A DNA stretch of 47,175 bases from Chryseobacterium gleum (GTDB taxonomy: Bacteria > Bacteroidota > Bacteroidia > Flavobacteriales_F > PHOS-HE28). Shown piece by piece: positions 1,775-15,289 of the stretch. The position numbers and the translations under genes were made by a program. The DNA lies in NCBI GenBank assembly GCA_945872795.1, contig CAMCAZ010000024.1, positions 1-47,175 on the forward strand, in the 5' to 3' direction. Below the pieces are notes generated by a model. The model had not been told where the DNA came from. It saw only the letters and a program-made list of their open reading frames with translations, and searched no databases. Position 1 is the first letter of the stretch. Each line of letters starts with the position of its first letter.

Positions 1775-4495
1775 TCAGGCCAGGCAGCAGGCGCAGTACT
1801 CGCTCTCCGGGTCGTGTTCAAAGGGGAGGCTGCTGACCATGACCTCATTCGTGAGGGTGGTGAGCAGTTCGGTCAGTTCATCAAAGTGTCCGCGACCGAT
1901 GATCTCCGATCCGCCGAGTTCCAGATAAAGACCGGATGCCTGCGATGCCCGTTGCAGGGGCACGATCCCTGCGCATAGACGCTCACATTCCGGGTCGTTG
2001 GCCATGTACATCCAGGCGTAGATGAGCAGTTGAAGCGCGTGGCGTTGGTCGCTGCCCAAGGCCTCGCGGCTCACCTGCTTCAAACTGAGCGAACGTTCCT
2101 TCACGGACCCGGTCTTCAGGTCCATGATGTGGATCACGCCATCGCGCCGGTCGATCCGGTCACAGCGCCCTTTGAGCCGTATCCCGTTGGGCAGCACCCC
2201 GCTCAGTTCCGTCTCCAGTGCCAAGGGGATCACCTGCGCACCCTTTTCATAGCGCTCGGCCTCCGTCCGGATATGTTCGATCACGGCCTTGCTGGCCATG
2301 TCCAGACGCAGCCGATGGTGACCCGTTTCCAGGGTCTCCAAGGGTGCGCTCAACGCCAGTCGCTGGGCGAGCATGGGCCGCACCTGCCCGGTCCAGGCCC
2401 GCATACTTTCGGGGTCGAGCACCTTGCCTAAAAAAGGCGTGGCCAGGTCCTGCAGCACGCCATGCACGGCCTCGCCCAGCACATCGCTCCCCAATTTTCC
2501 GGTCCGCTCCTCCGGTGCGTCGATGCCCAGGATGTAGGTGAAGTAATAGTCCAACGGACAGCGCAGCCAGGTCCCCAGCCCGGAAGGGGAGAGTCCCCGG
2601 GTGGCCAGTTGTTCCAGTCGTTCGGCGATGGCGGGCGATCGCTCCACCCGGATGGTGGCTGCCCCGCGCGGGGAGCGTTGGAGGGCCACCGTACCATGCT
2701 CGCAACGCGTTCTGGAGATGGGCACGAGTTCATATTCCCACTGGGCGATGTAGCGCGTGGGTTCATCCGCTTCCACCGAGCCGCCCACGTCGGAGACGAG
2801 CGTGATGTCCTGGGCCTGGTGAAGGAGTCGATGCACGTGGTAGGCCGTGATCGCCTCACTGTCCGCCCGCAGCGGCAAACCGTAGGCCCGGCGCACGTCG
2901 AAGGGGATGTAGCTCTGCTGCACGGAGCCCTGTGGCAGGGTGCCTTCGTTGGCGCCGAGCACCAGCATGCGGTCCATGTCGATGGCGCGTGTTTCCAGGA
3001 AACCCATCACCTGAAGGCCTTTGATCGGGTCGCCATAGAAACCGATCTGTTCGTCGCCGAGAAGGCGTTCGCGGATGCGGCAGTGCTCGGCCAGGTCATC
3101 GCTGGCGCCGTGGTATGCTTGCAGCGCCTGGTCCAGATGGTCCTGAAGGCTCGACATGCGGAAGATCTGTTCGGCGGCCAAGGCCTGATCGCCGGAGGTG
3201 GCCAGGGCCCATTGGAACAGGAGGGTCAGGGCCTCTTGAAGGACGCGGGCGGATAGTGCCTCCCGCATGACCGCGAGGTGGTCCATGCCCAATTCAGCCG
3301 CATGGGCCTCCAAGATGGCCAGGGATATCCCCGGCTGATCGATCCGGGAGAGCCGATGGACCAGCGCCCGGGTGCGCTGTCCCTGATCAAGGAAAGGATG
3401 GTTGATCAGCTTCAGGAGCGCATCCAAGGGGAGGGGGCCACCGTCGCCCCGGATAATGAGCAGGTCCAGGAACGCATCCACCAGGCCATGGACGGGCAGC
3501 GCGGAAAGTGGAACACCCATGGTGATGTTCACCGGTGCGAGGCTGCTGGGCATGGCCTCCAACAGGGGCATCAGCAGGTCCTCGTCGGCAAGCACCACGG
3601 TGGTGCGGTCGCGCTCCTCGTCGGACATGGCCTCCAGCTGCTGGGCGGCATAGCGGGCCTGACTGATACGGTCCGGCACCTGCACGGCGTGTATCCGGCG
3701 TTCGTTCTTCAGGGTGCCGTCGCCGGGCGGGATCACTCCGGCCCCCAGGTCGGCGATGGACCGCCGGATGAAGCGGCCGGCTTCGTGGGATGGGTTGTCG
3801 AGGTAATAGTGGTCAGTATCCCAGGCGACCTGGAGCACGCCCCTTTTCTGGAGCGACCTCATTACGCTGGTGCTCGCGGGCTCCAGGGCATTCAGGCCCA
3901 CGCACCAGACCATGTCCCAAGGCAATGTGGTCGTGGTCGGCAGGGCTTCGGCAGCCTTTCGGGCGATCCATCCCGAGGTGCCCAGCCCTCGCTCCTCCAT
4001 GGCCTGATGGAGCTGGCGGTGCATGGTCCCCGTGTTGCGCCAATGGTCCAGCAGCCGGTGCTGGCCGGGGCTCAGGTCCTCGCCGAGCGCTAGGCTCCAC
4101 GCATCGATGCCCTCAAAGGCCCGCAGGTCACGGTAGAGATCGTCGAGGTCGAGCAGGTGTGAATCCACTTCGCTCATGTCCCTTAGCACCACGGGGGCCC
4201 ACTGAAGGAAGGTGCTCAAGGGTTCGGCCGAGGCCTGCGCCACGGCGCGATGCACCTGGTGCAGCATCAGCAGCATGTCCATGGACCTGCCTTGTTCCAG
4301 TCCGGTGAGACGCCCCATGAATCCGCCCATGTCCAGCATGTCAGGGCTCCAGAGGGCGGCACCGGCATGCCGGGCGAGGTACCTTCGCAGGTGAAGGCCG
4401 GCACGCTGACCGGGCAATACCACGGCGACCCTTCCGAGGTCCCTGCCGTGGTGGTGCAGCAGTGCTTGGGCCGTACGATCCAGAAATGAGCTCAT
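1775..4495 (-). CDS. AddB-like PD-(D/E)XK nuclease of a double-strand-break repair complex
   Basis: The protein has 906 residues and resembles the AddB-like inactivated-helicase/nuclease proteins of Bacteroidota. The N-terminus ('VAVVLPGQRAGLHLRRYL') has the AddB-type layout but no Walker A motif. The C-terminal nuclease starts near residue 630 ('SGLGTWLRCPLDYYF', whose Cys is an iron-sulfur ligand in AddB). It carries the catalytic Asp and Lys around residues 780-792 ('GRCDRIDRRDG', 'IMDLKTGS'). The C-terminus ends in CACCLA, so the CxxC part of the iron-sulfur motif can be drawn but the final Cys of the family is missing. The ATG at 4495 is preferred over a TTG two codons upstream. The likely partner is the AddA-like helicase at 7416-10535. 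The ATG shares bases with that of the divergent gene at 4494. Confidence 0.88.
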   Translation of the reverse strand: MSSFLDRTAQALLHHHGRDLGRVAVVLPGQRAGLHLRRYLARHAGAALWSPDMLDMGGFMGRLTGLEQGRSMDMLLMLHQVHRAVAQASAEPLSTFLQWAPVVLRDMSEVDSHLLDLDDLYRDLRAFEGIDAWSLALGEDLSPGQHRLLDHWRNTGTMHRQLHQAMEERGLGTSGWIARKAAEALPTTTTLPWDMVWCVGLNALEPASTSVMRSLQKRGVLQVAWDTDHYYLDNPSHEAGRFIRRSIADLGAGVIPPGDGTLKNERRIHAVQVPDRISQARYAAQQLEAMSDEERDRTTVVLADEDLLMPLLEAMPSSLAPVNITMGVPLSALPVHGLVDAFLDLLIIRGDGGPLPLDALLKLINHPFLDQGQRTRALVHRLSRIDQPGISLAILEAHAAELGMDHLAVMREALSARVLQEALTLLFQWALATSGDQALAAEQIFRMSSLQDHLDQALQAYHGASDDLAEHCRIRERLLGDEQIGFYGDPIKGLQVMGFLETRAIDMDRMLVLGANEGTLPQGSVQQSYIPFDVRRAYGLPLRADSEAITAYHVHRLLHQAQDITLVSDVGGSVEADEPTRYIAQWEYELVPISRTRCEHGTVALQRSPRGAATIRVERSPAIAERLEQLATRGLSPSGLGTWLRCPLDYYFTYILGIDAPEERTGKLGSDVLGEAVHGVLQDLATPFLGKVLDPESMRAWTGQVRPMLAQRLALSAPLETLETGHHRLRLDMASKAVIEHIRTEAERYEKGAQVIPLALETELSGVLPNGIRLKGRCDRIDRRDGVIHIMDLKTGSVKERSLSLKQVSREALGSDQRHALQLLIYAWMYMANDPECERLCAGIVPLQRASQASGLYLELGGSEIIGRGHFDELTELLTTLTNEVMVSSLPFEHDPESEYCACCLA

Positions 4496-4766
4496 GAGCA
4501 ACGGGGTTGAAGATACGGGTACCCAAGCGGTGGACCACTGGCCTCAGTTCAGGCGCATGGTGGATGGCCGTCACTATTACAACGTGTTATCACCGGGCCA
4601 TTTCCTGGAGCTCCAGGCAGTTGGACGGCGTTGGGTGCTGCACGAAGTGCTGGCCACGGCCTATCCGGAGATGCTCAGGGTGCAGGAGATGCTGCAATGC
4701 CTGGAAGGACGTTATGAAGCAGTGAGCGAGGACGATTGGATGGAGCGCTTTGAACAGGTCGGTTGA
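4494..4766 (+). CDS. Small hypothetical protein, 90 residues
   Basis: I do not recognise this family. The protein is acidic to neutral, without signal peptide or membrane segment, and has aromatic-rich 'RHYYNVLSPGHFLELQ' and 'RRWVLHEVLAT' stretches suggesting a small folded domain. The ATG at 4494 overlaps the ATG of the divergent AddB-like gene in the four bases CATG (4493-4496). An internal ATG at 4560 would give 68 residues and avoid this overlap. Coding is supported by protein-like composition; no ribosome-binding site decides the start. The type B PKD gene follows 82 bases downstream. Confidence 0.6.
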   Translation: MSNGVEDTGTQAVDHWPQFRRMVDGRHYYNVLSPGHFLELQAVGRRWVLHEVLATAYPEMLRVQEMLQCLEGRYEAVSEDDWMERFEQVG

Positions 4767-4848
4767 AGGGGTGTTCTGAGAGGGGAAGTAGGTCAGCCCG
4801 AACAATGGGGCAACCTTACACCCTACCTTACCGTCGTCTTTCCAGTTC

Positions 4849-6963
4849 ATGCGCTCCCTCCTCGCTTTGGTCCTGATGGTATTCTGCGTAACGGCAGAGG
4901 CTACGCACATCATCGGCGGGAACATGTACTACGACCATCTGGGGGGCAACCAGTACCGGGTGACCTTGGTATTGTACCGTGATTGTGGCCCGGACAACGC
5001 GAACAATACCGGTTTCGACACTGCGGCGCAGTTGGCAGTGTACAATTCAAGCGGGGTGCAGGTCACGTCGGCCAGTGTGGCTTTTGCGGGCGAGGTGCCG
5101 GTCCCGGTCGAACTGAACGACCCCTGCCTCACCGCGCCCCCCACCGTTTGTGTCCGGACCGCGGTGTATCAGGAGGTGTTCAACCTTCCGCCCATCGCCG
5201 GCGGTTACACCATCAGTTACCAACGCTGCTGCCGCACCCCGTCCATGGTGAACCTGACAGGTCAGCAGGGCCTGACGTGTACCGCCTCCATCCCGGGTCC
5301 GCCGTTGTCTGTGAACAGTTCACCGCGCTTCAGCGACCTGCCCACCGTGGCGCTCTGCATCGGACGGGACGTCACCATCGACTTCTCGGCTACCGATCCG
5401 GACGGCGATCAATTGGTGTATGGCTTGTGCGCCCCCTTCATCGGTGGTTCGGCCGGAGATCCGGCACCGTTCCCGACGGCACCACCCTACCAGACGGTGA
5501 GCTATGGTCCGGGGTATTCAGCGGGCCAGCCACTGGATTCGGACCCTCCGATGTCCATCGATCCGGCCACCGGGGCACTCACCGTCAGTCCCACCTTGCA
5601 GGGTGTGTTCACCGTGGGCATCTGCGTCACCGAGATCCGGAACGGACAGGTGGTGGGAGAGACGCGCGGCGATTTCCTCTTCAAGGTGGTGGTGTGTGAT
5701 GCGACTGTGACCGCGAGCGTGGCCGAGCAGGGTGAAGGAGCACTGTGCGTGGGTCTCACCCAGTCCTTCGTGAACGAAAGCGAGAATGCGACCTTCTGGT
5801 CTTGGGATTTCGGTGATCCGGGCACCTTGGACGATGTATCCAATGAACAGGCGCCCGTTTGGACCTACGCACAGCCCGGGACTTACACCGTCCAGCTCAT
5901 CGCCAATCCCGGACAACCCTGTGCCGACACGAGTTTTCAGGTCTACGAGATGCAGGCTCCACTGGACATTTTCTTTCCCCGTCCGGCCATTCGTTGTCCC
6001 GGACAGGAGGCCGAGTTCGTGGCGTCCGGGGTCTTCGGTCCCAATACGATCTTCACGTGGGACCTCGGGCCGGTGGGCACGCCGTCGACAGCGACCGGGC
6101 AGATCACCAGCTCACAGTTCCTGGAGGTCGGCGTGCATCCAATCACATTGACGGGAGTGGATGGTGCGTGCAGCGATACCTACACGGATTCCGTGGTGGT
6201 GTTTCCCTGGCCGGTGATCGGCTTCATCAATGACCCGGAAGTGTGTGTCGGTGGTGATCTCGCCTTCGCCAGCACTTCTACGGCGGCCACGGCACTGCGC
6301 TATGCCTGGGAGTTGGGGGATGGAAGCACGTACACGGACAGCGCCTTCATCCATCGCTATGAGGGTGCCGGGAACTATGCCGTTTCACTCACCATTGCCA
6401 CGGACAGTGGATGCGTCGCCGAACTGGCCATGGACGCGCCCGCCTTGGTGCGCGTGCATCCGAACCCTGTCGCGGCGTTCACGGCGCTTCCCGCCGAGGT
6501 GAGCCTGATGGATCCCGTGGTCCGGATAGAGGACTATGCCGAAGGGGCTGTGGAATGGTCGTATACCGTGGAGAACGAGGAGTATGTCACCCCCGGGTTC
6601 GGGCATGAGTTCGAGGATGGTGGCCAGTTTCCGATCGTTCAGCGGGTGTTCACCGAGCACGGCTGTTCCGATTCGACGATCCGTGTCGTCACCGTGAGCG
6701 ACCACCTGGTCTATGTGCCGAACACCTTCACCCCGGATGGTGACGGGATCAACGATACCTGGGCTCCGTCCGTGCGGGGGGCGCGCCTGTTCGAGCTGCG
6801 CCTGTTCGACCGTTGGGGGCGTGAAGTGTTCAGCACCACGGATCCGCGTGCCGTGTGGTCCGGAGATGGTGAGGAACAGGGGGTCTACCACTACACCCTT
6901 TGGTTGGCGGAGTTCGGTGCCTACCGCAAGGAGTACAGCGGCCACGTGACCCTGTTACGCTGA
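4849..6963 (+). CDS. PKD-domain surface protein with T9SS type B (gliding-motility-type) sorting domain
   Basis: The protein has 704 residues with a signal peptide (MRSLLALVLMVFCVTAEA). The mature start 'THIIGGNMYYDHLGGNQYRV' is the opening typical of a large family of Bacteroidota surface proteins. The first 280 residues form a conserved beta-rich, Cys-containing region. PKD-like units follow, marked by 'WSWDFGD', 'FTWDLG' and 'YAWELGDGS'. The C-terminus is a type B sorting domain: 'VPNTFTPDGDGINDTW', then 'ELRLFDRWGREVF', then 'YSGHVTLLR'. A cell-surface or secreted role through the type IX system is inferred. The stop overlaps the convergent acetyltransferase gene by nine bases. Confidence 0.9.
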   Translation: MRSLLALVLMVFCVTAEATHIIGGNMYYDHLGGNQYRVTLVLYRDCGPDNANNTGFDTAAQLAVYNSSGVQVTSASVAFAGEVPVPVELNDPCLTAPPTVCVRTAVYQEVFNLPPIAGGYTISYQRCCRTPSMVNLTGQQGLTCTASIPGPPLSVNSSPRFSDLPTVALCIGRDVTIDFSATDPDGDQLVYGLCAPFIGGSAGDPAPFPTAPPYQTVSYGPGYSAGQPLDSDPPMSIDPATGALTVSPTLQGVFTVGICVTEIRNGQVVGETRGDFLFKVVVCDATVTASVAEQGEGALCVGLTQSFVNESENATFWSWDFGDPGTLDDVSNEQAPVWTYAQPGTYTVQLIANPGQPCADTSFQVYEMQAPLDIFFPRPAIRCPGQEAEFVASGVFGPNTIFTWDLGPVGTPSTATGQITSSQFLEVGVHPITLTGVDGACSDTYTDSVVVFPWPVIGFINDPEVCVGGDLAFASTSTAATALRYAWELGDGSTYTDSAFIHRYEGAGNYAVSLTIATDSGCVAELAMDAPALVRVHPNPVAAFTALPAEVSLMDPVVRIEDYAEGAVEWSYTVENEEYVTPGFGHEFEDGGQFPIVQRVFTEHGCSDSTIRVVTVSDHLVYVPNTFTPDGDGINDTWAPSVRGARLFELRLFDRWGREVFSTTDPRAVWSGDGEEQGVYHYTLWLAEFGAYRKEYSGHVTLLR

Positions 6964-7419
6964 GGCCTGACCTTCGGCCCTGCGCATGTCCACGTGCGGG
7001 ATGCCGTCCAGATCATAGTCCGCACCGGTCCGCTCATAGCCATGGGCTGCATAGAACCCCTCCAAATGGGCCTGTGCAGCAAGTTCCGAGCGACGTGATC
7101 CATGAATGCGATGCAGGGCGTCCAACGCGTTCGTCATCAGTTCATGCGCCAGCCCTTTGCCGCGGAGGGCAGGATGCACCACCACTCGGCCGATGTGCGG
7201 TAATCCACCATGTTCGGGTGGAAGGATGCGGGCACAGGCCATCAGTCGGCCTTCCTCATCATGTCCCAGCACGTGATGCGCGTTGAGGTCCAGCCCGTCC
7301 AGTTCGGCATAGGGGCAGTTCTGCTCCACCACGAAGACATCCACCCGCAAGCGGATCAGTTCGTACAGCTCACGCGCTGACAGTTCATCCAATGTGCGGA
7401 TCGTCCAGTTCATGGTCAT
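6955..7419 (-). CDS. GNAT N-acetyltransferase, ElaA-like
   Basis: The protein has 154 residues. The N-terminus ('YELIRLRVDVFVVEQNCPY') and the central 'ARILPP' and 'IGRVVVHPALRGKGLAHELM' segments match the ElaA branch of GNAT acetyltransferases. The last of these is the acetyl-CoA-binding motif A, with GKG in its R/QxxGxG position. The substrate is unknown. The ATG at 7419 overlaps the TGA of the helicase gene as ATGA, so translation is probably coupled to it. An ATG two codons on is less likely. Confidence 0.88.
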   Translation of the reverse strand: MTMNWTIRTLDELSARELYELIRLRVDVFVVEQNCPYAELDGLDLNAHHVLGHDEEGRLMACARILPPEHGGLPHIGRVVVHPALRGKGLAHELMTNALDALHRIHGSRRSELAAQAHLEGFYAAHGYERTGADYDLDGIPHVDMRRAEGQASA

Positions 7420-10400
7420 GGGTTCACAGGTCTGAGCTCGCCAGTACGCACATAGAGCAGGGCACCTTCCACACGCGCATGGCCCATGCGTTTGAGCAGG
7501 GACATGTACCCGGCCACCTGCTCGTCGTGTTCCTCGCGCGGCTGCCCGGTCTTGATGTCCAGGACGCGCACAAGGTCATGATCGAGGATCACACGGTCCG
7601 GTCGCCATGCGGTACCCTGTTCGTCGATGATGGTGGCTTCGGTGCGTACGTCCGGTCCGGGTGCGAACCAGCTGCCCACCTGTTCCCCGGCCAGCAGTTG
7701 GGCCAGCCTGTCGTGCAGCAGGGATGCTTCCTCGGCGGGCAGTTCTCCATCGCGGACGGCCGCGCTGATCGCATCGGGCAGGTCATGTGGGGTGCGGATC
7801 CGGGCCAGCACGGCATGCACTGTGCGGCCATGCGCCCTGTACGGATCACTTGAGCCCGGCACCCAGTCCTCGGGACGTTCCCAGCGCATGGTCATGGGCA
7901 ACGGCGCATCCGGTGTGGACACGTCGCGCAGGGTGATCGCATCCTGGCGATGATGAGCGCTGGTCAACGGGTGTCGTTCACCGATGGTGAGGCTGCCTTC
8001 CGATCCATGGATGTTCATGTAGTTCATCACGCCCTTGCTCACGATGTCCGCCGCATCCTCGGGGATGAAGGCGTACAGCCGGTGCACCGGACGGGTGAAG
8101 GCCACGTAGAGCAGGTCCAGTGCATCCAGATGGCGCAGTCCCATCTCCACCTGAAGCTCCGTGACCCCGCTTTCCTGGAGCATTTTCGAATCGCGCACCA
8201 GGGCGGCATCCAGGTCGGGCACGGCGGGCCGCGGGTCCACCCACAGGCGTTCCTGGCCATCACCGCGTGTCGTCATGCTGGCGTTGGGCATGATCACCAC
8301 CGGGAATTCCAGGCCCTTCGCCTTGTGGATCGTCATCACCTGCACGGCCTGTCCGTTCTCCGGTGGCGCTACGCTGCGGTTGGATCCGCTCCGTTTCCAG
8401 TGATCGATGAACCCATCGATATCCGGCCCGTGGGCTGTGGACCAGCTGTGTGCCTCGTCCAGCAGGGCCAGCACGGGCGCTTCTTCTGCGGGGCGGATGT
8501 GCAGCCAGTGGCACAGTCGCTGCAGCAGTTCCGTGAAGGTGGTGCGTACGCCGATCAGGTCCTGGCGCACCAGTTCATCCAGCAGTTCGCGCAGCGGCTT
8601 GGGCAGTTTCGTGCCGGGATCTGCGAGCAACACCTCCGTCGCATCGGGAAGGGCACGCAGCCTTGCCCTGTATTGCATCACGCGTGCGGCGGCGGTCTCG
8701 TCGGCGCGCTGCACGGCCCGGAGCAGGTCGATGAGCAGTTCCACCACCGGGTCGCCGGAGATCTTGAGGCCATCGGGGGACACCACGGCGAAGCCCGCCT
8801 TGACCAGGTGCTCCGCCACTCTCCGACCCTGCGCTCCCGTGCGCACCAGGATGGCCACATCACCCGGGGCCGCGCCGTCGGCGATGGACTCCCGGAGCCG
8901 GTCCATCACGTTCTCCAGCATCAGGTCCCAGCGGTCCTCGCCCTTCACATCGCGGGGCATCAGTTGCAGGTGCACCAGGCCCGGCAAGGAACCTCCGCTC
9001 TGCTGGGCATGACCCTCGTAAACGCTCCGCAGGTCCTCCGGCAGTTCGGTGGCGAGTGCACCGAAGAGATCATTGTTGAACTGGATGATGACGGGCGAGG
9101 AGCGTCGGTTGAAGGCCAGCGGTTCGGCCGTGTGGTAGTTGCGTTGAAGGGTCTCCTCCCGTTCCTGCTCCAGTTCCGAGTCGCCCCGGCCGAACAACTT
9201 GGGGAGGTTCACGAAGAGACGGACCTCTCCATTACGCCATCGGTAGATGGCCTGTTTGGCATCGCCCACGAGCAGTGCGCTGCCACCGGTCGAAAGCGCA
9301 TTGTCGATCAGCGGCAGCAGGCATGTCCATTGCAGGAGCGAGGTGTCCTGGAACTCGTCGATGAGGTAGTGGCGATACCGTTCGCCCATGCGCTCGTGGA
9401 TGAAGGGCACGGGCTCGTGCTGCACCACTTCGGCCACCTTGCGCGTGAGGTCGCTGAAGAAGGCCACACCATCCTCCTGCTTCAACCGGCTGAGGTGGCG
9501 TTCCAGTTCGTGCAAGGCGAAGGTCGCGGGGAGGTCGCGTGCCACCGCACGTTGCATGAGGAAGGTGGCATGGCCGCTCCGGGTCAGCTGTTCGGCCTCC
9601 TCGAAGATGGCCTGCAGCCGTGGTGCCAAATGCTCGAGGGCCGAGCGTACGGAAGGATCCGCCTTGGCCGAATGCCAGGTCCCGCTCTCCAGTGGTTTGC
9701 GGGCCTGTTGTCCCGGTGTCTGCCAGGCATCCTCGAACGCGGCCAACTTGCGGAATGTGCTGTAGATGCCCTTGTAACCGTAGGCGAGGTGTTCGGGTGC
9801 GATGTGCGCGGCCTCGATGTGCTTCAGTGCCTCCCGGCCCAGCTTCCGGAGCGAATTGCCGAAGGCGCGCTCCTCCGACCGCAACCGTTCGCTCAGCGCC
9901 GTGACCACCAGGGCGTCCATGGCACCCAGGCGGGAGAGCGGACCGATGGCGCTTTCCTTCTGCAGTTCGTGGGCCAGGGTGCGCAGGGGTAGTTCGGGGT
10001 CCCATTTCTGCTCTTCGTGCAGGAGCTGCAAACAGGCTTCGGTAAGGATGCCCGTGATGCGCAGATCGGTGCCGGCCTCGCCGATCAGGCCGTCCACCGC
10101 GGCGTTCAGGTAGTGGTCCTGGTCGGTGGTCATCTGCAGGTCATGGTCCAGCTGCAGGTCGCGGGCGAAGGGCCGCACCACCCGGCGGGTAAAGGCATCG
10201 ATGGTGCTGATCGCCACGTCGCTCCAGTGGTGCAGCATGTGGCGCAGCACGGCATCGGCCCGCTGTTCGATGACGGCCCGTCCCTTCCCGCTGCGCCGCT
10301 CCAGATGCTCCAGCACATCCCTCATGGCGCCATCGTTCACATCCCCCGAGGCGAGCTTTCGCAGGTAGCCCATCACGCGGGCCTTCATCTCGCCGGCCGC

Positions 10401-10535
10401 CTTGTTCGTGAAGGTCAGGGCCAGCACCTGCCGGTAGGCACCCGGATCATCGCCGCTGAGGCAATGGGCGAGGTAGTGCTTGACCAGGGAGTGGGTCTTG
10501 CCCGCACCGGCGGAACTGTGAAGGATCTGGAACAT
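7416..10535 (-). CDS. AddA/RecB-like UvrD-family helicase with C-terminal nuclease
   Basis: The protein has 1039 residues. All helicase SF1A motifs are visible: Walker A 'SSAGAGKT' at residues 7-14, Ia 'ALTFTNKAAGEMK' near 40-51, II 'IDEFQDTS' near 392, III 'LVGDAKQAIYRW' near 420, V 'MTIHKAKGLEFP' near 733, and VI 'LLYVAFTRP'. The C-terminus is a PD-(D/E)XK nuclease with Asp and Lys in 'RPDRVILD' and 'VLDIKTG' (near 990) and the QxxxY-type 'EQVAGY'. It probably unwinds and trims broken DNA ends together with the AddB-like protein at 1775-4495. The ATG at 10535 is chosen over a TTG four codons upstream. TATCTTGG occurs about 10 bases before it and could be a -7 box. Confidence 0.92.
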   Translation of the reverse strand: MFQILHSSAGAGKTHSLVKHYLAHCLSGDDPGAYRQVLALTFTNKAAGEMKARVMGYLRKLASGDVNDGAMRDVLEHLERRSGKGRAVIEQRADAVLRHMLHHWSDVAISTIDAFTRRVVRPFARDLQLDHDLQMTTDQDHYLNAAVDGLIGEAGTDLRITGILTEACLQLLHEEQKWDPELPLRTLAHELQKESAIGPLSRLGAMDALVVTALSERLRSEERAFGNSLRKLGREALKHIEAAHIAPEHLAYGYKGIYSTFRKLAAFEDAWQTPGQQARKPLESGTWHSAKADPSVRSALEHLAPRLQAIFEEAEQLTRSGHATFLMQRAVARDLPATFALHELERHLSRLKQEDGVAFFSDLTRKVAEVVQHEPVPFIHERMGERYRHYLIDEFQDTSLLQWTCLLPLIDNALSTGGSALLVGDAKQAIYRWRNGEVRLFVNLPKLFGRGDSELEQEREETLQRNYHTAEPLAFNRRSSPVIIQFNNDLFGALATELPEDLRSVYEGHAQQSGGSLPGLVHLQLMPRDVKGEDRWDLMLENVMDRLRESIADGAAPGDVAILVRTGAQGRRVAEHLVKAGFAVVSPDGLKISGDPVVELLIDLLRAVQRADETAAARVMQYRARLRALPDATEVLLADPGTKLPKPLRELLDELVRQDLIGVRTTFTELLQRLCHWLHIRPAEEAPVLALLDEAHSWSTAHGPDIDGFIDHWKRSGSNRSVAPPENGQAVQVMTIHKAKGLEFPVVIMPNASMTTRGDGQERLWVDPRPAVPDLDAALVRDSKMLQESGVTELQVEMGLRHLDALDLLYVAFTRPVHRLYAFIPEDAADIVSKGVMNYMNIHGSEGSLTIGERHPLTSAHHRQDAITLRDVSTPDAPLPMTMRWERPEDWVPGSSDPYRAHGRTVHAVLARIRTPHDLPDAISAAVRDGELPAEEASLLHDRLAQLLAGEQVGSWFAPGPDVRTEATIIDEQGTAWRPDRVILDHDLVRVLDIKTGQPREEHDEQVAGYMSLLKRMGHARVEGALLYVRTGELRPVNP

Positions 10536-10590
10536 CGGCCCGACCAAGATAGGATCTAGGGAATGGTCGTTCCTGAGTGAGGATGGTCAC

Positions 10591-10668: not shown

Positions 10669-11445
10669 ATGCAGCAGCGATCACGGTCCTTCCTCCTCGT
10701 GTTGCTCACCCTCGGTGTGGGCCTGTCCTCGTGCAAAAAAGATCCGGCGGTTGAACCGGACCCCGTAACGCCACCGGCGCCCACCGGTGTGGTGAAACTG
10801 ACCGTGGTGCCGGAATGGGAGGGAGCGCCCATGCAGCGCTTCTCAGAGTACCGCAATTTCATGGACTACCGCGTCAATGTGGAGCTCCTGAAGCTCTATC
10901 TGGGCGAAGTGCGTCTGGCGAACGGCGGGGTGGAGAAGGCGCTCTCCGATGTGCTCTATTTCGACCTCGGGGATGGACCTGTTTCCCAGTCCTGGCGGGT
11001 GGATACGGGCGCGTGGATGGGCCTGAAGGCCGGCTTGGGGGTGCCATCCGTGCTGAACTACGCTGACCCCGCAGGATACGGCCCGGGCCATCCCTTGAAC
11101 GTGAGTAACGGCACCTACTGGACCTGGGCCACGGGCTACCGCTTCGTGATGTTCGAGGGACGTTACGATCCCGATCCCCTGAGCACCGACCCCCTGATCA
11201 ACAGCTATTCCCTGCATCCCGGGATGGACACCTGCTACGCCGCTGTCGAGCTATGGCCCAGCGGGGGTGTCCAGGTCCGGCAGGGCGATACGGCCTTCGT
11301 GACGGTGCGCCTGGCGGTGGACGAGTTCTTCCATTCGGCGAACGGCACCATAGACCTGGTGACCGAGAACACCGCCCATGGTGGCAACCTCCCGCTGGCA
11401 CTGAAGTTCACGGATAACGTGGTCCGCAGCATCTCCGTGGATTGA
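10669..11445 (+). CDS. MbnP-like copper-associated lipoprotein
   Basis: The protein has 258 residues with a lipoprotein signal (lipobox LSSC, Cys22); the ATG at 10669 gives the cleanest signal. The fold is predicted to be beta-rich, and the segments 'FMDYRVNVELLKLYLGEVRL', 'GHPLN' near 140 and 'YWTWATGYRF' at 150-159 recall the MbnP family. In characterised MbnP a Trp is converted to kynurenine by the di-haem enzyme MbnH and takes part in copper binding. Here two MbnH/CcpA-like genes follow directly, the first overlapping by four bases, which supports the call. No methanobactin genes are visible, so a general periplasmic copper or oxidative role is inferred. Confidence 0.75.
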   Translation: MQQRSRSFLLVLLTLGVGLSSCKKDPAVEPDPVTPPAPTGVVKLTVVPEWEGAPMQRFSEYRNFMDYRVNVELLKLYLGEVRLANGGVEKALSDVLYFDLGDGPVSQSWRVDTGAWMGLKAGLGVPSVLNYADPAGYGPGHPLNVSNGTYWTWATGYRFVMFEGRYDPDPLSTDPLINSYSLHPGMDTCYAAVELWPSGGVQVRQGDTAFVTVRLAVDEFFHSANGTIDLVTENTAHGGNLPLALKFTDNVVRSISVD

Positions 11446-12452
11446 AGGGCTTGCCTTGGATAGGGGTCGTGGTGGTGTTGGCCGTGGGTTGCCGCAAGGA
11501 CCCGGTCATGGAGAATACGACCGTCAATGAGCCTTACATCGTGGAGCTCCCCCCGGGAGCACCGCAGATGGTCGTACCGCCGGATAACCCCCTGACCGTG
11601 GCCTCCGTCACCTTGGGCAAGGCCTTGTTCTTTGATCGGCGCTTGTCGCGTGATGGCACGGTCTCCTGTGCCTCCTGCCATTTCCCGGATCGGGCGTTCA
11701 GTGATACCATTGCCCTGAGCCTTGGCGTGGAAGGCCGTGTCGGCATGCGCAATTCACCTCCCCTGACCAACCTCGCGTGGCATCCGTCCTTCTTCCGCGA
11801 TGGCGGGGTCCCCACTTTGGAACAGCAGGTCATCGCACCGATCCATGACCCAGTAGAGATGGACCATGACATCCAGGTGGCCGCTTCGTTCCTGGCCGAT
11901 GAGGAACCCTATGCCGAACTGAGCGAATTGGCCTACGGCAGGCGGATGGATGCCTGGGTGCTCAGTCGCGCGATCGCGGCTTACGAACGGACCCTGGTCA
12001 GTGGCTGGTCGCGCTTCGATCGTTTCCAGCAGGGAGACCTGGCCGCCATGAGCGCTCAGGAACAGCAGGGCTGGGCCTTGTTCTCCAGCCCGGAGTTCAA
12101 CTGCATCGCCTGCCACAGTGGCTTCGACCTCAGCGATCATTCGTTCCAGAACATCGGACAGTACACCACCTACACCGATCCCGGACGGGAGCGCATCTCT
12201 CTGGAGCCCGGGGACCATGGCAAGTTCAAGGTGCCCACCCTGCGTAATGTGGCCCTGACGGCGCCGTACATGCACGATGGGGCGATGGGCACACTCGAGG
12301 AGGTGGTCGACCATTTTGCATCCGGAGGATCGCCCCATCCGAACAAGAGCCCCCTCCTTGAGGGTTTTACGGTGACGAACGAAGAGCGCGCCGCCCTGGT
12401 CGCCTTCCTCCATGCCTTGACCGACGAACGTTCCATCGATCGCCTACCTTGA
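11442..12452 (+). CDS. Di-haem cytochrome c peroxidase family lipoprotein (MbnH/CcpA-like), copy 1
   Basis: The protein has 336 residues. Two haem c sites are visible: CASCH at residues 76-80 and CIACH at 221-225. The C-terminal 'VPTLRNVALTAPYMHDG' is the conserved family block that supplies an axial Met. The start is a TTG overlapping the upstream TGA (TTGA); it leads into a lipoprotein signal with lipobox LAVGC. A TTG four codons later is an alternative start. The protein would act in the periplasm, reducing peroxide or, like MbnH, oxidising a Trp of the neighbouring MbnP-like protein. It differs from the next gene in length and in the spacing between haems, so it is not a recent duplicate. 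Confidence 0.87.
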   Translation: MKGLPWIGVVVVLAVGCRKDPVMENTTVNEPYIVELPPGAPQMVVPPDNPLTVASVTLGKALFFDRRLSRDGTVSCASCHFPDRAFSDTIALSLGVEGRVGMRNSPPLTNLAWHPSFFRDGGVPTLEQQVIAPIHDPVEMDHDIQVAASFLADEEPYAELSELAYGRRMDAWVLSRAIAAYERTLVSGWSRFDRFQQGDLAAMSAQEQQGWALFSSPEFNCIACHSGFDLSDHSFQNIGQYTTYTDPGRERISLEPGDHGKFKVPTLRNVALTAPYMHDGAMGTLEEVVDHFASGGSPHPNKSPLLEGFTVTNEERAALVAFLHALTDERSIDRLP

Positions 12453-12458
12453 CCCGTG

Positions 12459-13598
12459 ATGAACGCACGCAGCTTCCTCTTCCTGCTCACCCTTCCCGTG
12501 TTCCTGTTCGCGGCCTGTAATCCTGACGAGGACCAGGACCCGAGCGTGGACCCGCCGAACGGGGGGCAGGTGTATACCCCCACACCCTACGCGCTGACCA
12601 TTCCGGGGAACTTCTCCGCCATGCCCATCCCGGCGGACAATCCCTTCACGGTGGAGGGTATCCGTCTGGGACGTTTCCTGTTCTATGAAGAGCGGCTGTC
12701 CGGTAACAACACGCAGAGCTGTGCCTCCTGCCACGCGGCCGAGGTGGCCTTCACGGACCATGGGAACCGCTACAGCATGGGTATCGATGGCATCCAGGGG
12801 AACCGAAACTCCATGCCCATGCAGAACCTGGGTTGGGAGCAACGCTTCTTCTGGGATGGAAGGGCCATGACCTTGGAGCAGCAGATCCTGGAGCCGGTGG
12901 AGAACCCCATCGAGATGCACGAGACCTGGCCCGATGCAGTGGCCAAGCTGGAGCAGGACAGCGTGTATCCCACGCTCTTCCTGCGGGCCTTCGGCACTCC
13001 GGGCATCAGCCCCGAGCGGACGTCCAAGGCCATCGCCCAGTTCCTGCGCACCATGATCAGTGCCAACTCCCGCTGCGACCAGTTCATGCGTGGGGAGGTC
13101 CAGCTGAACGAGACCGAACAATTGGGTTTCCAGCTGACATTGCTTGAGGGAGGCTTTCCACCCGAGGTGATGGGTGGTCAGGGCGGGGCCGATTGTTTCC
13201 ATTGTCACCCGCACGGCGGTGGTCGCTTCACCGATGGCCTCATCCGGAACAACGGCCTTGATCCCGAATCCATGTGGACGGACCTGGGGCTGGGGGGCGT
13301 CACCGGAGCGCCGCAGGACCGGGCAAAGTTCAAGACACCCTCATTGCGCAATGTGGTGCTGACCGCACCCTACATGCACGATGGCCGCTTCCAGACCCTG
13401 GAGGAAGTGATCGAGCACTACAACAGCGGTGGGCATCCTTCCACGACGGTGGACCCGAACATGAAGTACACGACGGGAGGGTTGCAACTGACGCCCGAGA
13501 AGAAGGCGCAATTGATCGCTTTTCTGCACACACTGACGGATACCGAGTTCGTGACGAACCCAGCGTTCCTGGATCCCGGCCCTCCGACCCTGCAGTGA
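12459..13598 (+). CDS. Di-haem cytochrome c peroxidase family lipoprotein (MbnH/CcpA-like), copy 2
   Basis: The protein has 379 residues; the ATG at 12459 is preferred to a GTG one codon upstream. A lipoprotein signal ends at lipobox LFAAC (Cys20). Haem c sites are CASCH at 88-92 and CFHCH at 246-250, and 'TPSLRNVVLTAPYMHDG' is the conserved C-terminal block. It starts six bases after copy 1 ends, so the three genes from 10669 form one transcript. It carries extra sequence around the second haem ('PEVMGGQGGADCFHCHPHGGG') compared with copy 1. Which copy modifies the MbnP-like protein cannot be told from sequence. It ends nine bases from the convergent flavoprotein gene. Confidence 0.88.
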   Translation: MNARSFLFLLTLPVFLFAACNPDEDQDPSVDPPNGGQVYTPTPYALTIPGNFSAMPIPADNPFTVEGIRLGRFLFYEERLSGNNTQSCASCHAAEVAFTDHGNRYSMGIDGIQGNRNSMPMQNLGWEQRFFWDGRAMTLEQQILEPVENPIEMHETWPDAVAKLEQDSVYPTLFLRAFGTPGISPERTSKAIAQFLRTMISANSRCDQFMRGEVQLNETEQLGFQLTLLEGGFPPEVMGGQGGADCFHCHPHGGGRFTDGLIRNNGLDPESMWTDLGLGGVTGAPQDRAKFKTPSLRNVVLTAPYMHDGRFQTLEEVIEHYNSGGHPSTTVDPNMKYTTGGLQLTPEKKAQLIAFLHTLTDTEFVTNPAFLDPGPPTLQ

Positions 13599-13607
13599 TC
13601 GCCGCGG

Positions 13608-15119
13608 TCAGGCGGCCACCACGCTGTCCACCTCGGGTACCCAGTCGTAGCAGCGCAGCTTATCCCCCAGCACTTCGGGTTTGAAGATGCTTGATCCCAG
13701 TAGCATTCGCGCGCATTCCTGAACACCCTCGGTGATGCTGGGATGCGGATGCACCAGTTCCGCCAGTTCGCGGATCGGCGTGCCGAGACGCATCATCAGG
13801 GCCACGGCCTGGATCGCGCTGGAGGCATGTTCGCCCACGGCACGCATGCCCAGGATGCGCATCTCCGCATCGTTCGTCACCAGTATCTTGAAGAAGCCTT
13901 TGGTCCTGCGCATGGCGATGGCCCGGGCCAGGCAGGAGTAGTCGATGCGGGCCAGGCGGTAGGGGATGCCGCGCTTCCGGCATTCCTGTTCGTTGAGTCC
14001 CACGCCCGCCACCTCGGGGTCCAGGAACATGATGGTGCTGATGTTGTCGTAGCTCGGCTCGTTGTTCCGTTGTCCGAACAACTGTTCCACGGCATGGCGT
14101 CCTTCCATCTCGCCGAGGTTCACCAGCATGTTGGTGCCCGTGGCATCGCCCACCAGGTGGATGTGCGGGAGGCTGCTGGCCGTTCCGGTCAGGACGGGGC
14201 TTCCTGTTCGTTCATCCAGCTTCACACCGATCTGTTCCAGGCCGATGCGGTCCGTGTTCGGGATGCGTCCCACGGACAGGAGCGCCCGTTCCACGCGAAC
14301 GACCTCGCGCCGGCCATCGGGGTAGGAGATTTCGTATTCCACCTCCTCGCCGGGTGCGGGGTCCATGGCGAGCGCGATCCGTTCAAGCTTCGCAGAGCGA
14401 TGGATGACCACGCCCCGCCGTTCCATCTCACGGGCCACGAGCTCGGACACGTCGGTGTCCTCGAAGGGCAGGATGCGTTCCGCGCGGTCGATGATGTGCA
14501 CGCGTGTCTGGCTGAGGTTGGAGAAGATGGTGGCGAACTCGCAGCCGATGACCCCGGCGCCGATGATCACGATGCTCTTGGGCATCTGCTCGAGGCCGAA
14601 GATCCCATCGCTGGTAAGGATGTGCCGTTCATCCGTGGGGATGTTGGGCACCGTGCGCGGTCGGCTGCCGGTGGCGATGATGATGGTATCCGCGTGGACG
14701 CTCAGTGGGCCCGATGGGCGCTGGATATCCACCGTGTGCGGACCGGTCATCACGGCGTTGCCACGTTCATAGTGGAACAGGGAGCTGCCGTTCCGGTCCT
14801 TGGTGGCGCCCAGCAGTTGCATGTGGCAGGCGTAGAGGTACTTGCGTTCAAAGACCGCTTCGTTCAGCGTGCGGTTGATCTCCTCCCAGCTCAGGCGGAA
14901 GGGTTCGCGGCCGCGGGTGCGCATCAGGTCGTTGGTGCTGGACACGCGCTGGGCGATCTCCCACAGGGTCTTGGAGGCCAGCGCACCGTTGTAGATACCG
15001 GTGCCCCCGATCCGGTCGCGCTCCACCAGCAGCACGCGTTTGCCGAGGTCGATGGCGCGCATGGCGGCGGCGTGGCCCGCAGGCCCACCACCAATGACGC
15101 AGAGGTCGAATCGTTCCAT
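13608..15119 (-). CDS. FAD/NAD(P) flavoprotein of the disulfide-reductase fold, soluble-transhydrogenase-like, without redox cysteines
   Basis: The protein has 503 residues; the ATG at 15119 starts just before the FAD-binding 'DLCVIGGGPAGHAAA'. A second Rossmann motif ('IVIIGAGVIGCEFA') binds NAD(P), 'HLVGDATG' binds FAD, and the interface helix carries 'HPHPSITE'. The redox-active pair of the family (GGTCxxxxC) is replaced: the block reads GGTGIYNGALASK at 38-50, with Gly41 and Ala46 where the cysteines should be. This excludes normal lipoamide, glutathione or mercuric reductase chemistry. It is closest to soluble NAD(P) transhydrogenases (SthA type), which also lack a working disulfide. That substrate assignment is inferred. 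Confidence 0.82.
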   Translation of the reverse strand: MERFDLCVIGGGPAGHAAAMRAIDLGKRVLLVERDRIGGTGIYNGALASKTLWEIAQRVSSTNDLMRTRGREPFRLSWEEINRTLNEAVFERKYLYACHMQLLGATKDRNGSSLFHYERGNAVMTGPHTVDIQRPSGPLSVHADTIIIATGSRPRTVPNIPTDERHILTSDGIFGLEQMPKSIVIIGAGVIGCEFATIFSNLSQTRVHIIDRAERILPFEDTDVSELVAREMERRGVVIHRSAKLERIALAMDPAPGEEVEYEISYPDGRREVVRVERALLSVGRIPNTDRIGLEQIGVKLDERTGSPVLTGTASSLPHIHLVGDATGTNMLVNLGEMEGRHAVEQLFGQRNNEPSYDNISTIMFLDPEVAGVGLNEQECRKRGIPYRLARIDYSCLARAIAMRRTKGFFKILVTNDAEMRILGMRAVGEHASSAIQAVALMMRLGTPIRELAELVHPHPSITEGVQECARMLLGSSIFKPEVLGDKLRCYDWVPEVDSVVAA

Positions 15120-15289
15120 GGTTGATCCCGAATGGGCGGGAAGGACGGATTCATACGCAGGTGCCCGGTCAGGGTTCCGAGTGGTAGTCGTTCCGGTAGG
15201 GGTGTTCCCCGGTCTGTTCGGGGGCTTGGTCGGGTGGAACAAGCGATGGGCGTATCCTTTCCTAGGTACCGGTCGTACCAAAGCGCGAA

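Follow-up and report, generated by a model that had tools for sequence, protein, structure and literature searches.

A predicted Trp-less second type of MbnH beside a canonical MbnH and an MbnP-family lipoprotein in Chryseobacterium gleum

The window analyzed here is a 47,175-nucleotide stretch of Chryseobacterium gleum DNA (GCA_945872795.1, contig CAMCAZ010000024.1, positions 1 to 47,175), in which three intact open reading frames (ORFs) follow one another on the forward strand: a predicted copper-binding lipoprotein of the MbnP family, 258 residues in length (10669–11445), a 336-residue MbnH-family di-haem lipoprotein with a TTG start, termed H1 (11442–12452), and a 380-residue MbnH-family di-haem lipoprotein, termed H2, which begins with GTG (12456–13598) or with ATG at 12459. 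A preliminary description of this DNA had spoken of overlapping genes, which holds for MbnP and H1, sharing 4 bases, but not for H1 and H2, which are separated by 3–6 bases. Its suggestion that all three products are lipoproteins is borne out by lipobox-like N termini with a cysteine (Cys22 in MbnP, Cys17 in H1, and Cys21 in H2) that is kept in the genus relatives. The three genes recur together across the genus and the phylum far above chance and form a real operon; the underlying data are mostly metagenome-assembled, and the counts given below take in close relatives.

The earlier proposal of an MbnP-like protein with a YWTW block (W151 and W153 of MbnP) is upheld by Pfam PF20243, whose gathering score is exceeded (66.5 bits, cut-off 27). 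The best-named NCBIfam model, TIGR04052, gives 33.5 bits, below its equivalog cut-off of 140, which the 13 other MbnPs scanned all miss as well. When the genus MbnP alignment was searched as a profile against the PDB, the solved MbnP structure, 7l6g, came up at an E value of 0.66 only, and it is the fold comparison, strong where this search is weak, that settles the identity. The AlphaFold model of MbnP (predicted local distance difference test score, pLDDT, 95.0) superposes on 7l6g with a Z score of 16.9 and a root-mean-square deviation (rmsd) of 2.8 over 199 aligned residues, Foldseek pairs the two at E 1.8e-08, and the best unrelated fold lies far below (Z 5.7). The modeled structure thus places the window lipoprotein in the MbnP family and predicts the MbnP fold.

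Both enzymes match the CCP_MauG profile well above its cut-off of 25.6 bits (H1, 167.9; H2, 186.6), and for both the best-scoring NCBIfam model is TIGR04039 (H1, 259.3 bits; H2, 254.6 bits), with a cut-off of 362.85 that neither reaches and that the four other MbnHs scanned miss as well. The top PDB match by sequence is in each case MbnH, 6e1c (E 1.2e-48 for H1 and 4.9e-54 for H2), which outscores the classical peroxidases and MauG for both proteins. Each enzyme carries two CxxCH motifs, as first noted. In H2, these are CASCH (12720–12734; 38/38 genus rows) and CFHCH (13194–13208; 37/37); the inter-haem Trp133 (12852–12854) is Trp in 38/38 genus rows, and the axial-ligand Tyr322 (13419–13421) is Tyr in all 36 filled rows. 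H2 is thus closest to 6e1c among the solved di-haem proteins, has both haem motifs as well as the Trp between the haems and the Tyr at the axial position, and qualifies as a canonical MbnH.

H1 likewise has MbnH as its closest solved di-haem protein, carries two haem motifs, CASCH (11667–11681) and CIACH (12102–12116), each present in 39/39 genus rows, and adjoins MbnP. Its AlphaFold model (pLDDT 91.8) is matched best by 6e1c (Z 36.6, rmsd 1.7, 305 residues aligned), followed by classical peroxidases (Z ~32), MauG (Z ~30), and BthA (6nx0; Z 27.6). The inter-haem Trp column was located by its distance from three residues of the peroxide pocket (Gln at +10, Pro at +14, and Glu at +20), and it corresponds to W94 of the bacterial cytochrome c peroxidase (bCCP) and W93 of MauG. 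At this position H1 has Arg119 (11796–11798), and at the axial-ligand position, which is Tyr in MbnH and Met in bCCP, it has Phe292 (12315–12317); H1 therefore has no equivalents of MauG Trp93 and Tyr294. The inter-haem column holds Arg in 36/39 genus rows and Trp in none, the window included, and the axial column holds Phe in 36/39 and Tyr in 3/39. Outside the genus, the Trp-less relatives of H1 (type II, below) keep the axial Tyr in 31/31 rows (33 minus the genus duplicates L187 and L188), and the inter-haem Arg therefore looks old and the axial Phe local. The peroxide pocket is retained: Gln129, Pro133, and Glu139 of H1 (11826–11858) match Q104, P108, and E114 of bCCP, and of the 72 rows of type II all have this Pro and Glu, and 68 have the Gln. 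These two substitutions, an inter-haem Arg and a Phe in place of the sixth ligand, probably leave the haems of H1 poorly coupled, although the enzyme should still activate peroxide without the usual Trp bridge. As Arg119 and Phe292 replace the Trp and Tyr of 6e1c, H1 is best filed as a divergent sister clade inside the MbnH family rather than as a canonical MbnH. A classical CcpA identity was considered for both enzymes and is ruled out by the profiles, the PDB ranking, the tree, and the ligand residues: the axial Met of bCCP and CcpA at the second haem is absent, and neither H1 nor H2 groups with classical CcpA in the phylogenetic comparison that had been proposed for them.

Trees were built with both typing columns masked. 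In the FastTree phylogeny, all enzymes with Arg, Lys, or Ser at the inter-haem position fall into one clade of 72 of the 246 leaves, 65 of which are of these three types. In IQ-TREE (quick mode), the corresponding clade comprises 46 of 103 rows (40 Arg/Lys/Ser, 4 Phe, and 2 Trp) and is supported by a Shimodaira–Hasegawa-like approximate likelihood-ratio test (SH-aLRT) value of 97; H2, the third MbnH of the genome, and 6e1c all lie outside it. We refer to this Trp-less clade as type II and to all other MbnHs as type I. Outside the genus, the inter-haem column of type I is Trp in 108 of 122 rows, the remainder being 7 Tyr, 3 Ala, 2 Phe, and 2 Leu. The families are known ones, and what appears new is a Trp-less second type of MbnH next to a canonical one, with a chemistry that is so far a prediction. 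Such a type is not described among the MbnP/MbnH literature matches listed, in the parts of those papers that were available, and an earlier mention in the original MbnH/MbnP papers is possible.

Two further kinds of departure were seen among the MbnHs. Tyr occupies the inter-haem Trp column in 7 of the 66 MbnH-like proteins of the phylum sample described below, a second route to Trp loss; the loci are L134, L136, L147, L162, L172, L173, and L175 (a large ORF, 4279–6237), and the Tyr-type protein is the sole MbnH at six of them, with two MbnHs at L175. At L144, L166, L184, and L186, single MbnHs have an axial Phe and YGSFG for the usual YMHDG, with the conserved His gone.

In MbnP of Methylosinus trichosporium, Cu(I) is reportedly bound by a His, a Met, and kynurenine, together with solvent. 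In the window MbnP, the WxW motif W151-T-W153 (11119–11127) aligns with the WNW of 7l6g, W151 being the Trp predicted to become kynurenine; His183 (11215–11217), a predicted copper ligand, aligns with the His of VHVG in 7l6g; and in the alignment column of the second predicted ligand, His237 (11377–11379) replaces the Met of a typical MbnP. The 7l6g stretch that matches the His237 region reads GCMS, the Met of which would be the copper ligand. W151 is present in 39/40 genus rows, 32/32 other type II rows, and 80/85 rows from loci with type I only, and the His183 column is His in 38/40, 33/33, and 83/84 rows, respectively. Since the Met column holds His237 and His183 is kept, the window MbnP is predicted to have a site of two His and kynurenine, like MopE and CorA.

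The second-ligand column is His in 40/40 genus rows and 33/33 other type II rows. In the type-I-only loci, it reads Met in 32/85 and His in 25/85 by column or, with alignment slips allowed, Met in 47, His in 27, and other residues in 11 of the 85. In raw counts, with two near-column calls counted, His is found in 73/73 MbnPs of type II loci versus 27/85 of type-I-only loci. A phylogeny-aware paired test on the MbnP tree, however, gave three supported independent pairs for an association of His237 with type II and was not significant; the same test found nothing for W153. Coevolution of His237 with type II was accordingly dropped as independent evidence, and His237 is better regarded as a trait that the members of a single lineage have in common. 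Individual MbnPs deviate at these columns: in L069 and L071 an upstream MbnP copy has Glu in place of the ligand His183, and at L144, L166, L184, and L186 the Met/His ligand column of MbnP is occupied by Ser, Thr, or Asp.

An H1 orthologue was found in 41/45 genus genomes, one of the four without it being 99% complete. The order MbnP-H1-H2 is seen in 35/40 genus stretches; four others are cut by contig ends, and the remaining one is a different locus that was chosen deliberately. Across the phylum, 101/392 genomes have an MbnP match, and 60 loci were drawn at random from 119 distinct, non-own MbnP places. All 60 have an MbnH neighbor, one in 54 cases and two in 6, so that a one-to-one pairing is usual, with the triad a fixed feature of the window's lineage and of some others. 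Two di-haem partners for one MbnP, earlier considered unusual, are thus indeed uncommon in the phylum, but the arrangement is fixed in the genus and recurs in other Bacteroidota. All five type II genes of the sample lie in the six two-MbnH loci and none in single-MbnH loci (Fisher p 1.2e-06), with one of the 60 loci, which has a truncated MbnH, left untyped.

A further 80 named loci were picked with the H1 alignment, a biased draw that favors type II; in most of these, a type II gene is followed by a Trp-type one. Once the duplicates L187, L188, and L220 are removed, the pooled loci from outside the genus include 31 with type II. The order MbnP, type II, type I is found in 17/31, and type II is the sole MbnH beside an MbnP in 8/31, which marks it as a true MbnP partner; of the rest, two have two MbnP-MbnH pairs, two have a divergent type I, and two have no detected MbnP. 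For each of the ten type II loci without an adjacent type I, a Trp-type MbnH is present elsewhere in the genome (10/10, best hits per genome typed). Wherever checked, type II is accompanied by another MbnH and is never the only one in a genome.

Other arrangements of the two families were also observed. The genus loci L069, L071, L078, L081, L083, and L091 have two MbnPs ahead of the enzyme genes. The window genome has a second MbnP on contig C62 (L007, 8970–9731) with a WAW motif, a Met-type ligand column, and no MbnH alongside, and a third MbnH of the Trp and Tyr type on contig C29 (L006, 7976–9139) with no MbnP alongside. In Verrucomicrobia, three single ORFs of 587–602 residues (L238, 391–2196; L247, 362–2137; L250, 4182–5942) encode MbnP-MbnH fusions, all with the MbnP domain N-terminal and the MbnH domain C-terminal.

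The MbnPs of type II loci outside the genus often carry about 80 extra C-terminal residues (20/33, versus 0/85 for type-I-only loci), and 10 of the 11 tailed MbnPs scanned pass the type IX sorting-domain model, with L207 falling short (20.1 of 23). Loci L149 and L192, which hold two MbnP-MbnH pairs, have a tailed MbnP beside type II and an untailed one beside type I. In the genus of the window, a lipobox is recognized by a simple pattern in 38/40 MbnP rows and a tail in 0/40.

Compared with MbnP and MbnH of M. trichosporium OB3b (7l6g and 6e1c), the window operon shares the MbnP fold, the di-haem fold, the WxW motif, the conserved His, and the adjacency of the genes, and in H2 the Trp between the haems and the axial-ligand Tyr are both retained. 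It differs in having two enzymes instead of one, in an H1 that has neither Trp nor Tyr, in a His for Met at the second predicted ligand, and in its lack of methanobactin genes; as had been stated for the neighborhood, there are none nearby, and no MbnB-family protein (PF05114) is matched anywhere in the genome of the window. H1 resembles MauG in fold, in its peroxide-pocket residues, and in a protein-modifying role, which for H1 is predicted, but no methylamine dehydrogenase link is seen for the window operon. In the methanotroph systems MopE/SACCP and CorA/CorB, a surface or secreted copper protein is co-transcribed with a di-haem peroxidase, and the copper sites of MopE (PMC3423442) and CorA (PMC3912023) consist of two His and kynurenine; the likeness of the window MbnP to these proteins is confined to the predicted ligand set. 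BthA of Burkholderia is a di-haem enzyme that, like H1, has no Trp between its haems, although it has Ser257 where H1 has Arg, is structurally less similar to H1 than 6e1c is, and is given no MbnP association in the available portion of its report (PMC6405878).

We propose, at about even chances, that the operon is a copper-site maturation system in which H1 and H2 act jointly on MbnP. MbnP would be exported as a lipoprotein, and a peroxide-driven di-haem enzyme would oxidize W151, the first Trp of the WxW motif, to kynurenine, which together with His183 and His237 would form a Cu(I) site of the MopE/CorA kind. With its complete MauG/MbnH apparatus, H2 would be the likelier long-range oxidant, whereas H1 would be dedicated to this MbnP lineage, with H2 working on the same protein. 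Published work reportedly has MbnH modifying MbnP, and the adjacency at 60/60 loci and the three Verrucomicrobia fusions make it very probable that MbnH works on MbnP. For CorA/CorB, the authors themselves suggest that the di-haem partner modifies CorA (PMC3912023).

Several observations weigh against this proposal. At ten of the type II loci no type I gene lies alongside, two Trp-bearing rows sit inside the 46-row type II clade, and type I is itself sometimes without Trp (14/122 outside the genus). In M. trichosporium a single MbnH is reportedly enough to make kynurenine (Manesis et al. 2021), and the chemistry thus does not demand a second enzyme. Finally, BthA still forms bis-Fe(IV) with Ser in place of the inter-haem Trp, with a calculated electron coupling that falls about tenfold for one step (PMC6405878); loss of the Trp is therefore no proof of altered chemistry.

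A possible alternative, to which we accord a minority weight, is that each enzyme serves its own MbnP, type II maturing the local protein and type I another one, here the C62 orphan, so that a one-MbnP operon would be the remnant of an ancestor with two MbnP-MbnH pairs after loss of an MbnP. The two pairs with matching tail types at L149 and L192, the six genus loci with two MbnPs, the loci where type II alone adjoins an MbnP (8/31), and the unpaired MbnP and MbnH of the window genome are all consistent with this division. The single-MbnP order of MbnP, type II, and type I, however, is kept in most genus loci and in 17/31 others, and its retention would be odd if type I had no local substrate, which counts against this alternative.

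H1 could also serve to scavenge peroxide or to exchange electrons with H2, for example in a heterodimer, with MbnP not its substrate. A peroxide pocket that is conserved while the Trp between the haems and the Tyr at the axial position are lost would fit such a role. BthA, also without the Trp, shows H2O2 turnover (PMC6405878) and reportedly turns peroxide into water. We nevertheless consider it unlikely, as type II is the sole MbnH beside MbnP in 8/31 non-genus loci, which points to MbnP as substrate. H1 has lost two residues conserved in MauG and MbnH, but that it is a duplicate in decay, without a function of its own, is very improbable and largely refuted by its conservation: the gene is intact, H1 shares 49–67% identity with its relatives in the genus, its haem and peroxide-pocket residues are invariant, and the clade recurs across the phylum with Arg in 36/39 genus rows.

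Joint maturation by H1 and H2 can be extended into a wider statement, namely that type II is a distinct protein-modifying haem enzyme that, with a canonical MbnH, builds a His2-kynurenine site, and that many of the MbnPs concerned are sent to the surface by type IX secretion; taken as a whole, this is rather doubtful. If true, it would give Bacteroidota a counterpart of MopE and CorA on another scaffold, made without MauG-type, Trp-mediated haem-haem coupling. To our knowledge, copper sites containing kynurenine have so far been demonstrated in no more than a few proteins, all from methanotrophs. An Arg-type clade that retains the peroxide pocket, beside a Trp-bearing sister with the same kind of substrate, would offer a natural experiment on how di-haem enzymes direct oxidation to a single Trp in a second protein and on whether haem-haem coupling is needed for this. 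The absence of Trp and Tyr from H1, its separate clade, and the change from Met to His at the MbnP copper site go beyond the preliminary description. The Arg type, the His/His MbnP, and the secretion tail provide a simple marker for a candidate Bacteroidota copper system, which the NCBIfam and Pfam models used here lump together with other MbnP and MbnH proteins.

The operon is flanked by two minus-strand genes, a UvrD-like helicase upstream (7416–10547) and a dihydrolipoamide-dehydrogenase-like flavoprotein downstream (13608–15281), and Pfam matches indicate no copper link for either. No recurrent third partner gene is clearly shared by the type II loci outside the genus; the clusters found around type II loci consist of the genus's own flanking genes and opposite-strand shadow ORFs. 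On contig C62, the MbnP gene is preceded by one for a CDVCG-motif protein without a Pfam match, and the relative G002 (L096) carries two MbnH genes resembling that of C29 in tandem.

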